Assembly (NCBI GenBank): GCA_000827205.1
Contig: KN832555.1
Coordinates: 2,881,011 to 2,945,010, forward strand
From: Plicaturopsis crispa FD-325 SS-3
Taxonomy: Eukaryota; Basidiomycota; Agaricomycetes; Amylocorticiales; Amylocorticiaceae
Length of the DNA: 64,000 bases
Direction of reading: 5' to 3'
The notes beneath the pieces were generated by a model that saw only the letters and a program-made list of their open reading frames with translations, did no database searches and had not been told where the DNA came from. This document shows positions 53,373-57,634 of the stretch, one piece after another. Each line of letters begins with the position of its first letter. Position 1 is the first letter of the stretch. A program made the translations under genes and the position numbers.

Positions 53373-55976
53373 ATGGATCTACTACAATTCCGTGGCACCT
53401 TGGCGCTTGTAGGCCAGGGCGTTGCAGCCATCGCAGACGCGTCCATAGCATCTACCAAATCTGGAGAGCCCGACAGTCTCTCGGCCTTGATCGGCACGGA
53501 AACACCATACCATATCACTCTTGCTACGAAAGCAGAACTCGCGAATACTCCTAGCACACGGAGGGACATATCCAATCTCCAAGTCGATACCCGGAGTATT
53601 TTCCCGATAGGCATAGGTGCGGACAGGGAAACGGGGACTTATTTCGTGGTTATCATTTGGGTCGCAGGCCAACAATTGCGCAAGCAGCTCGGCCTTCCGC
53701 CCAAAGATTTCCACATCACACTCTCTCGACACGACAACCATGGCGTCGACAAGGGCGTCGATTCTCTCCTTCCCGGGGAATTTCCCCCTTCACCTAGCAT
53801 CGATGCTCTCGATCACCTCGTTCTTACCCTATTCCTTTTTCATCGTGACGAAAAGGCGCGGTCGTTCTGCTTGAAGCTCATCCACGCGTATCCCACATCC
53901 GAACGCGGCTTTCTTCGATTAGCAGACGGTGCTCTTCGGCAAGGGCAGCACAAACTAGCCATGCTCTCCTATGCAGGCGCATCTCACCGCACCTCCGACA
54001 CGAGGACTCAACAGTACTGCGTCAAAAATATGTTCACCTGTTCAACGCAGACAGAATGGGGTTGCGTATTCTGCGAGCATGAACTGGCTCAGATACCTCG
54101 AGACCTTATGAAGGTACTTCTAGTTCCATGGATGCCGGAGTTACGCTCCCTCATCAGCGAGACTGCTACCGTCCCTGTCCTTTGTTTGGACGCCCGCATA
54201 CACATGGCCATCCCTCCGAGGCCTGGCAACAGCCTTGCCAGCGATAACTTCGTGAAACTACCCCGATTTTTTCGGTGGCTTATTCCTTTCCATATCGCAC
54301 TGATGTCTACACCTCGCCACGCGTCCGACATCGCAGCTCTCTCCGGTCCTTACATAGGAATCCGCCACGTCCTCACTTTGACGGAGGAGAGCCCCCTTGA
54401 TAAATCGTGGTTCGCGCAACATGGCATCAAGAATACCTTCCTTCCTATTCCCAACTTCGATCCACCGTCTATCGAGCAGATGCAGCTGATTATCCGCCTG
54501 TTAAATAACGAAGACAACACGCCGATGCTGATTCATTGTGGCGGTGGCAAGGGACGAGCAGGTACCGTTGCAGCATGCTACCTCGTGGCCTACGGTTTTG
54601 CGAAGCCGCAGCCGGACCGTACGCAGCCTGCTATGACTGCTCGAGAGGCAATCGATGCTCTACGAGCAATCAGGCCGGGTAGTATTGAGACACTACAACA
54701 GGAGGCATTTGTCGCGAAGTGGTGCAGCACCATATGGAAAACGCAAGTCATCCTCCCCGAGCTACCTCCAGAGCCACTGGACTGTGCACTCGAGATCGAA
54801 GGGTCTCTGGACGCTCAAGCTGACTTCCTCATGTTGGTCGGTCTTCCTGGCTCAGGCAAGTCGTGGTTTTCCAAAGCCCTTCTTGTTAGAGACCCTCGGA
54901 TTTGGACGCACATATCGCAGGATGAGTCCGGGAGCCGCTCCTCCTGCGAGAGTGCCATCGGTCGTACAAAAGGCCGCGTCTTGCTTGACCGGTGCAACGT
55001 ATCGCCAGCAGACCGCAAACTTTGGCTCGAGCTTGCTTCCTCTGCGACTACCCACCCAGTGGCAGTTTGGTTTGACTACGATCGGGAACTGTGCATCTCT
55101 CGCGCCCAGAATCGTTCTGACCACCCCACGCTGCCACCGGGGAGCAGGGTCTGTAATGCGGTCGACCAGATGCAGAAGGCTTTCGTGCGGCCAGATCTAA
55201 AGGAGGGGTTCAAAGCGATCGTCGTCGTTCGCTCTTTTGCAGCGGCCCAGGAGCTTGTCACCCGTCTCTCCCCTGCCGTAACTTTCTTTAAATTTCCTCG
55301 CATCCCTCACCTCCTCAATCTTGGTGGCGCAACGTCGGACGACATCGTCCTAAACGCGCCTGTTCTACCGACCGCTGGGAATGTTGTCATCACGGAGAAG
55401 GTCGACGGCGCTAACATGGGATTTTCACTCTCACCGTATCGGACAACAATCATGGTTCAGAACCGGTCCAATTATGTGAACCCATCGACTCACGAACAGT
55501 TCAAAAGGCTCGGGCTCTGGACGGAGCATCACGGGAAAGAGCTTCGCCGTATATTGCACGACGAGCACTTCGCCCAGCGATATATTCTCTTCGGCGAATG
55601 GCTCACGGCGACGCACTCTATCCCTTATACACGCCTTCCTGACCGGTTCCTCGCTTTTGATCTCTATGACCGGAGCACAAATACGTGGGCCGACAGAAAG
55701 ACGCTATCGGCCGTACTATCCTCCACGAGCATACACATGGTTCCGGTGATCCACGAGGGTCAATGTCCCTCTGAAATGGAGCTCAGGAGCATGGTCCAGC
55801 TTCAGTCAAAGTACTATGACGGGCGGGTTGAGGGCTTGTTTGTGAAGGTAGAGAACCATGGCAGGGTTCTGAGTAGGGCCAAAGTCGTGCGCGGAGATTT
55901 CATTGCCGGGAACGATCACTGGAACAAAGGAAAGCTGCAGTTGAACGGCATCGCATCAGAGGAAGGCAGTAGCTAA
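53373..55976 (+). CDS. Swiss-Army-Knife RNA-repair fusion: 2H phosphoesterase, PTP, kinase, RNA ligase
   Basis: Single intronless frame of 867 residues from the first ATG (MDLLQFRGTLALVG). Residues ~1-140: 2H phosphoesterase with two H-x-T motifs, YHITLA (His47) and FHITLS (His114). ~150-330: helical, TPR-like linker. ~330-460: dual-specificity-type phosphatase with HCGGGKGRAGT (Cys389, Arg395). ~480-640: P-loop kinase with GLPGSGKSWF (Lys496) and DRCNVSPADRKLW. ~645-855: nucleotidyltransferase ligase with KVDG (Lys676), QNRSNYV, LFGEWL, FLAFDLYD, VEGLFVKVE and SRAKVVR. Together these could remove or reshape 2',3'-cyclic and 3' phosphates, phosphorylate 5' ends and seal RNA. This matches the 'Swiss Army Knife' RNA-repair architecture known from comparative genomics. 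All visible catalytic residues are present. The activity itself is inferred. Confidence 0.88.
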   Translation: MDLLQFRGTLALVGQGVAAIADASIASTKSGEPDSLSALIGTETPYHITLATKAELANTPSTRRDISNLQVDTRSIFPIGIGADRETGTYFVVIIWVAGQQLRKQLGLPPKDFHITLSRHDNHGVDKGVDSLLPGEFPPSPSIDALDHLVLTLFLFHRDEKARSFCLKLIHAYPTSERGFLRLADGALRQGQHKLAMLSYAGASHRTSDTRTQQYCVKNMFTCSTQTEWGCVFCEHELAQIPRDLMKVLLVPWMPELRSLISETATVPVLCLDARIHMAIPPRPGNSLASDNFVKLPRFFRWLIPFHIALMSTPRHASDIAALSGPYIGIRHVLTLTEESPLDKSWFAQHGIKNTFLPIPNFDPPSIEQMQLIIRLLNNEDNTPMLIHCGGGKGRAGTVAACYLVAYGFAKPQPDRTQPAMTAREAIDALRAIRPGSIETLQQEAFVAKWCSTIWKTQVILPELPPEPLDCALEIEGSLDAQADFLMLVGLPGSGKSWFSKALLVRDPRIWTHISQDESGSRSSCESAIGRTKGRVLLDRCNVSPADRKLWLELASSATTHPVAVWFDYDRELCISRAQNRSDHPTLPPGSRVCNAVDQMQKAFVRPDLKEGFKAIVVVRSFAAAQELVTRLSPAVTFFKFPRIPHLLNLGGATSDDIVLNAPVLPTAGNVVITEKVDGANMGFSLSPYRTTIMVQNRSNYVNPSTHEQFKRLGLWTEHHGKELRRILHDEHFAQRYILFGEWLTATHSIPYTRLPDRFLAFDLYDRSTNTWADRKTLSAVLSSTSIHMVPVIHEGQCPSEMELRSMVQLQSKYYDGRVEGLFVKVENHGRVLSRAKVVRGDFIAGNDHWNKGKLQLNGIASEEGSS

Positions 55977-56326: not shown

Positions 56327-57634
56327 ATGGCCAGCCAAACTTACCCGCTTTTCTGCATCGGAAACCCCTTGCTCGACATCCAAGTCACCGGCGGTGAAGC
56401 GCTCTTGGCGAAGTATGACTTGAAGGCAAACGATGCCATCCTTGCGGAAGAAAAGCATCTTCCTCTGTAAGTTGCCAAACTTTCCCACTAGATCGCGAGA
56501 ACACTCAACGAGCCATGCAACAGATACGACGAGATCGTCAAGGAATACAAGACCACCTATGTCGCGGGAGGTGCTGGCCAGAACGCTGCCCGAGGAGCTG
56601 CGGTAAGGATATGACCGCGGAATTGACGCGCCAGGATGCTTAACTTTGCCATTACAGTACGTTCTCCCCCCAAACTCGGTCGTCTATACCGGATGTGTCG
56701 GAGACGACGAGCTCGCAGAGCAGCTGAAGGCTGCTAACAAGCGCGAAGGTCTCCGCGATGTTTACCAGGTCAAAAAAGGCGAAAAGACGGGCGCATGCGC
56801 GGTCATCATCACTGGTCACCACCGGTAGATATGCCCCTCATACCCCATGGCTCACAAACTGATCTGGGAAATAGATCGCTTGTAACTACTCTGCGTGTTG
56901 CCGAGAAATTTGAGCAATCGCACCTTGCATCGCCCGAGGTCGCACCACTCGTCGAGGCCGCAAAGGTCTTTTACATCGAGGGTTACTTCCTGACCCACGG
57001 TGTCGACACCCTCGTCGAGCTCGGTAAAAAGGCATCTCACGCCGGGAAGGTATGATGACCTGCTCCCAGCTCAGAGACCCTATCTTGACACCGATGTTTT
57101 AGGTGTTCGCATTGAACCTTTCCGCCCCCTTCATCCCCCAATTCTTCGGCGCCCAGCTCCAGCAGGTCCTCCCGTACACTGACATCGTCATCGGTAACGA
57201 GGCCGAGGCCGAATCGTGGGCCAGCGCCACTGGCCTGCCCGACACCAAGAGCCTTCCCGCCATCGCCAAGGCCCTCGCTGCGACGCCAAAATCCAACGCC
57301 TCGCGGCCCCGTATCGTGATCTTCACCCAGGGCCCTCTGTCTACCTTCGTGGTGTCGTCCGCGGACGTCGACATCGTGAAAGAGTTCAAGGTCAACCCGC
57401 TGAGCGACGACCAGATTGTTGACACGAACGGTGCCGGCGACGCGTTCGCGGGTGGATTCCTCGGCGCGTACGTTGCCGGCAAAAGCCTCGACGAGAGCGT
57501 TGAGGTAGGGCACAAGTTGGGCGCGATGACTGTCGGCCAAGTACGTTGCGATGTCTTAGCATGTACTGGACAGACACTAATGCACTCATCAGATTGGACC
57601 CCAATACCAATGGCCCAAGGTCGCCATCCTCTAG
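56327..57634 (+). CDS. ADO1: Adenosine kinase
   Basis: Purine-salvage enzyme of the ribokinase (PfkB) family: adenosine + ATP to AMP + ADP, and a sink for adenosine made in the methyl cycle. The start is MASQTYPLFCIGNPLLDI. Spliced motifs: YVAGGAGQNAARGA (substrate-binding GG), VVYTGCVGDDELAEQLK, FALNLSAPFIPQFFG, IVIGNEAEAESWA and the PfkB signature DTNGAGDAFAGGFLGAYVAG with the catalytic Asp. The end is GPQYQWPKVAIL before TAG. Six exons or so. Length about 340-350 residues, normal for the family. Confidence 0.95.

Follow-up and report, generated by a model that had tools for sequence, protein, structure and literature searches.

Can a single fungal polypeptide carry all that is needed to heal the ends of a broken RNA and to seal them again? 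The question is raised by a 64,000-nucleotide stretch of DNA from the basidiomycete Plicaturopsis crispa FD-325 SS-3 (contig KN832555.1, positions 2,881,011 to 2,945,010 of the forward strand, here called the window). A sequence-only reading had described one of its genes as a one-chain fusion of a 2H phosphoesterase, a cysteine phosphatase (PTP), a P-loop kinase and an RNA ligase, and had counted it among the 'Swiss Army Knife' (SAK) RNA-repair proteins. A profile search of the 867-residue protein bore this out for all four segments, with Pfam returning 2H-SAK, PTP-SAK, AAA_33 and RNA_ligase in this order, each above its curated cut-off, and none of the segments proved to be of another fold. 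The name is likewise correct, since two of the domains fall into Pfam families that already bear it. Judged from its sequence, the protein is a complete member of the known SAK family, whose members, like the fungal protein, fuse 2H-SAK and PTP-SAK domains to a kinase and an RNA ligase, and we consider it probable that it acts as a fused enzyme for RNA end-healing and sealing. New here are its virus relatives, which apparently come both fused and split, and the resemblance between its ligase and the ligases found in HEC-03-like bacterial operons.

The reading frame (Table 1) lies far beyond chance expectation: from stop to stop it spans 896 codons and is the longest in the window, followed by one of 895 codons that touches the right edge, and the longest frame in 20 mononucleotide shuffles of the window reached 329 codons. 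The N-terminus looks complete, because the 2H-SAK match already sets in at residue 10, which aligns with position 3 of the profile. All motifs that the earlier reading had named could be placed. These are the two H-x-T motifs of the 2H domain (HITL at residues 47 and 114, i.e. H47-x-T49 and H114-x-T116, located by script and invariant in an alignment of the protein with two bacterial and two viral relatives), the CX5R loop of the phosphatase (CGGGKGR at 389, C389-x5-R395), the Walker A motif of the kinase (GLPGSGKS, residues 490–497) and the ligase motifs including KVDG (EKVDG at 675 as motif I, FGEW at 740, EGLFVK at 820 and RAKVVR at 835); HISQD at 513 and LDRCN at 538 were further located by script. 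Which of these residues are catalytic is known from their families, and K676 is by its motif the predicted ligase nucleophile.

Table 1. Coordinates of the gene and of its domains in the window
Feature	Start	End	Strand	Extent and basis
SAK-type RNA-repair gene	53373	55976	+	one uninterrupted frame, 867 aa + stop
2H-SAK phosphoesterase domain	53400	53741	+	residues 10-123; Pfam PF22547, E 4.5e-18
Two tandem TPR-like repeats	53799	54002	+	residues 143-176 and 177-210; not proven
PTP-SAK dual-specificity-type phosphatase	54261	54713	+	residues 297-447; Pfam PF22784, E 2.2e-55
P-loop polynucleotide-kinase-like domain	54825	55232	+	residues about 485-620; Pfam AAA_33 (486-603), E 1.4e-11
RNA ligase (covalent nucleotidyltransferase)	55284	55958	+	residues about 638-862; Pfam PF09414 (670-839), E 2.9e-32

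We propose a model in which the starting substrate would be RNA cut by a transesterifying RNase, which leaves a 2',3'-cyclic phosphate on one end and a 5'-OH on the other. The 2H domain, to which the term 'end trimming' had been wrongly applied, would open this cyclic phosphate and so produce a monoester, probably a 2'-phosphate, and the cysteine phosphatase, presumed to be specific for RNA, would strip this monoester to leave clean 2',3'-OH. The P-loop kinase would phosphorylate the 5'-OH and the ligase, predicted to use ATP, would take AMP onto K676, pass it to the 5'-phosphate and then join the strands, with the TPR-like linker probably positioning the RNA or a partner. The likely use would be to mend RNAs cleaved under stress or by toxic RNases, not to take part in constitutive tRNA splicing. 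Basidiomycetes make ribotoxin-like RNases (PMC8068006, excerpt), so damaged rRNA or tRNA would be a plausible substrate; among the matches listed for ageritin-type ribotoxins, there was no mention of RNA repair. If the model holds, the junction would be free of 2'-phosphate and Tpt1 dispensable, unlike in the case of the fungal tRNA ligase Trl1. With one recombinant protein it becomes directly testable whether a cysteine phosphatase can clear RNA 2'- or 3'-phosphates and in this way allow scar-free eukaryotic ligation without Tpt1.

Of the healing domains, 2H has no recognisable solved relative in a PDB profile search, and the solved proteins nearest to the phosphatase by sequence are DUSP23 and 25xa, the latter from the dual specificity phosphatase family. 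For the kinase, 9drz (E 2.1e-18) and 9d8a, a kinase of the mucoralean fungus Rhizopus azygosporus (4.8e-17), come first, followed by entries named metallophosphoesterase, which we take to be bacterial Pnkp, and polynucleotide phosphatase/kinase (about 1e-6); NCBIfam likewise gave PNKP-type kinase matches below their full-length cut-offs (PNK-3'Pase 1.8e-10, far below; 7.6e-9). The linker between 2H and PTP had been read as TPR-like over residues ~150–330; the TPR-like part is instead limited to two putative repeats at ~143–210, residues 297–447 belonging to the phosphatase. Two windows, one at residue 143 and the other exactly 34 residues further on at 177, fit the TPR signature consensus at 6 of 8 positions each, and this tandem score is the highest anywhere in the protein and was reached in 3 of 5000 shuffles. 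A low-confidence structure model places linker helices at 142–156, 160–172, 177–189 and 193–206. Pfam TPR_14 matched the whole protein at an E of only 0.17 and the linker scanned alone gave no Pfam match, and we regard the linker as TPR-like, not as a proven TPR array.

For the ligase, structure prediction supported the fold. A profile from a 44-row ligase alignment matched the Naegleria RNA ligase (4.6e-7), ligases of Aquifex and of archaea (5e-7 to 4e-6) and, less strongly, T4 Rnl2 (0.0039), and AlphaFold2 on the same alignment gave a predicted local distance difference test score (pLDDT) of 90.2 and a predicted template modelling score of 0.89. With this model Foldseek retrieved Naegleria 6vt1 (5.9e-8), T4 Rnl2 2hvr (1.4e-7) and the Trypanosoma brucei editing ligase (1.1e-6); the NCBIfam Rnl2 match was weak (0.15, below the full-length cut-off). 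The domain is thus confidently modelled as a minimal nucleotidyltransferase fold, which it has in common with the ligases of Naegleria gruberi and T4 (Rnl2) at 14–18% identity over the fold. It differs from both in being fused to healing domains and in lacking an extra OB or C-terminal domain: the chain stops shortly after motif V, and the gap between the end of the kinase (about residue 620) and the start of the ligase (about 638) is too short to hold a separate OB domain.

Further evidence comes from viruses. A scan with the 2H alignment picked up L248, a contig of the virus collection IMG/VR, whose 565-residue protein P0010 matches 2H-SAK (1.2e-12), DSPc (5e-14; this segment also matches PTP-SAK at 8.2e-10) and AAA_33 (5.7e-11) in Pfam and is 30% identical to fungal residues 1–632, with the order 2H-linker-PTP-kinase conserved. 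On the opposite strand, tail-to-tail and overlapping the end of the P0010 gene, lies a SAK-type ligase gene with 44% identity to the fungal ligase. Since the healing trio of P0010 adjoins this gene, the ligase accompanies the healing domains both in one chain and as a gene of its own. The neighbouring genes include a methyltransferase and frames that by eye resemble an IMP dehydrogenase or GMP reductase, a peptidase M13 and tail-collar repeats. L248 likely derives from a giant virus. Among 287 loci collected, repeats of one place included, it is the only one with all four domain kinds, and 13 further loci, all viral contigs, have kinase and ligase only. In a tree of the 44-row alignment the fungal ligase groups with that of L248 (92/82), separately from the remaining 42 rows. 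A stand-alone 2H-SAK gene was also seen on a 152-kb viral contig (L249:2728-3432), near a gene for a poly(A)-polymerase head domain (L249:264-1388).

In the virus structure collection BFVD, the best match to the ligase model was A0A3G4ZM97, an 859-residue protein of Terrestrivirus, a member of Klosneuvirinae (E 6e-21, 34% identity, TMq 0.86; next match 5.8e-11). The same protein came first with the low-confidence N-terminal model (622 columns, 5e-21, 24% identity, TMq 0.22), followed by a 649-residue Bodo saltans virus protein (619 columns, 1.3e-14, 19%; next match 1.2e-5). Low-confidence models can yield meaningless Foldseek matches, and we take these top two as statements on architecture, not on fold. 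Because L248 is split and A0A3G4ZM97 matches both halves in the fold searches, viruses seem to possess SAK in fused as well as in split form. A chimera of two genes was considered and set aside as unlikely, since P0010 keeps the same order and the Terrestrivirus protein matches both the ligase model and, with the low-confidence model, the N-terminal 632 residues.

A known parallel for comparison is Trl1 (LIG-KIN-CPD), which likewise fuses a ligase, a P-loop kinase and a cyclic phosphodiesterase and both heals and seals, but has the ligase first, the phosphodiesterase last and no phosphatase, so that the 2'-phosphate it leaves must afterwards be removed by Tpt1 (PMC6592678, excerpt). The fungal protein is not a Trl1 variant: its order is 2H-PTP-kinase-ligase, and no tRNA_lig family occurs among its 14 Pfam matches with E up to 1. 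It could still act in a Trl1-like way, with a ligase that needs or tolerates a 2'-phosphate at the 3'-end and a PTP that acts after sealing, clearing the junction in place of Tpt1. The phosphate left by the Trl1 phosphodiesterase does persist at the junction (PMC6592678, same excerpt), and the P0010 kinase weakly matches Pfam tRNA_lig_kinase (E 0.0095, below cut-off); however, Naegleria RNA ligase and T4 Rnl2 are the nearest matches to the ligase, and tRNA ligase entries score less well in Foldseek (from 4.2e-5 for 6n0t), which makes this order of events unlikely. Naegleria RNA ligase and T4 Rnl2 join plain 3'-OH ends.

A second alternative would leave the other three domains as the kit and assign the PTP to 5'-polyphosphate RNA ends, to protein or to a nucleotide signal. 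Its solved relatives among the dual-specificity phosphatases, such as DUSP23, fit such a role, as does the matching of bacterial phosphatases by the PTP-SAK profile, but the phosphatase is kept between 2H and kinase in P0010, and we give this assignment little credence. That the gene is a decaying or inactive copy is highly improbable, with 867 codons free of stops and the expected motifs intact.

Several observations weigh against our reading. Structure prediction left the fold of residues 1–632 unconfirmed (two-row alignment, mean pLDDT 48), and in the Foldseek list from that model other alignments of 566–634 columns appear at E 1.6e-4 or worse, some of them plainly by chance. The PTP-SAK profile is unspecific, with matches in 5 of the 9 bacterial genomes scanned (best E 4.9e-23) and in 9 of the 14 controls. 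A single-window TPR score is ordinary, being reached by 281 of 2000 shuffles and, for the virus linker, by 1210 of 2000. Support for the fungal-L248 ligase pairing is moderate, under the star mark of the tool, and the branches are long. Well-studied relatives of the ligase have an additional OB or C-terminal domain; with none of its own, the fungal ligase may depend on a partner. Among 10 window frames scanned with Pfam no known RNA-repair genes were found.

With giant viruses among them, the virus relatives of the fused repair enzyme hint that repair kits move between viruses and hosts, and suggest that giant viruses of eukaryotes, like phages, may carry such kits against host RNases. A wider reading, which we put forward as speculative and rather doubtful, would see in SAK a mobile RNA-repair kit common to fungi and giant viruses: Klosneuvirus-type viruses would bear it fused (Terrestrivirus) or split (L248, possibly Bodo saltans virus) to counteract host RNases, exchange with such viruses or their hosts would account for the fungal gene, and the cysteine phosphatase would be an NAD-independent replacement of Tpt1. 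The split virus form offers a natural route to testing the parts separately.

The SAK family reportedly goes back to a 2016 study by Burroughs and Aravind in NAR. As far as we have seen, it is known from comparative genomics and hardly studied experimentally; the matches listed held no experimental work on a fungal SAK protein or on SAK in giant viruses, which may still exist. PMC7824862 (excerpt) cites the 2016 study and names a 'Swiss-army-knife' family of HAD phosphatases in phages; that domain is not the same as the PTP of the fungal protein. The 'swiss army knife' of PMC11090510 (excerpt) was set aside, as it refers to Cdc48 and not to SAK repair proteins.

In bacteria, relatives of the ligase occur in another setting. 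From at least 556 confirmed bacterial stretches the best 80 were taken (L007–L086), with 34–40% identity to the fungal ligase in the best segment and stop-to-stop ligase frames of 227–423 codons in 79 of them. In tblastn searches (three PIN queries, one ATPase query), 66 of the 80 have an ATPase within 3 kb upstream and 59 a PIN-like gene within 1.5 kb upstream; both genes are present in 55 and neither in 10, of which some sit near contig ends. The remaining frame, of 1215 codons (L051:3028-6675), combines an ATPase match with the ligase and could be an operon fusion. These ATPase-PIN-RNA ligase operons (L001–L004 also among them), which occur on plasmids too, resemble HEC-03-like candidate defence pairs with the ligase as third gene: among plasmid copies scanned in PADLOC one ATPase matched HEC-03B best (7.1e-61), as well as 51 other families, and two small genes matched HEC-03A (1.9e-24, 3.1e-23), while neither the two plasmid ligases nor the fungal protein matched any model. 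The small upstream gene is in our reading a PIN nuclease, three such genes giving no match in Pfam. Cuts made by PIN nucleases generally have a 3'-OH and a 5'-phosphate, so that a ligase can rejoin them with no prior healing, and the operons are possibly a cut-and-reseal system. The fungal protein has the healing domains in addition; none of the 80 loci matched its 2H, PTP or kinase domains at E up to 0.01.

A bacterial SAK fusion was not found in the seven phyla sampled, though its absence is not proven, because no control genome matched in any 2H-SAK scan; whole-protein scans of genome and viral contigs were uninformative. The 2H-SAK genome scans gave matches over the cut-off in 2 of 299, at the cut-off (27 bits) in 1 of 247 and below it in 1 of 282, and none in 9, 149, 194, 201 and 199. 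All four matches lie in open frames of 144–247 aa. Two of the rare stand-alone bacterial 2H-SAK proteins (L175:1165-1890 and L176:1465-2067) have N-termini that by eye resemble signal peptides, and the 3.3 kb viewed show no evident repair genes. On a plasmid, an ADP-ribosylglycohydrolase-family protein (L179:2339-3907), encoded near ATPase, WYL and PD-(D/E)XK genes, matches the PTP domain with its N-terminal part at 36.6% identity. In the window itself, the intronless SAK frame is adjacent to an adenosine-kinase-like gene (56327–57000) with two short GT-AG introns of 57 and 55 nucleotides, which fit a fungal genome.
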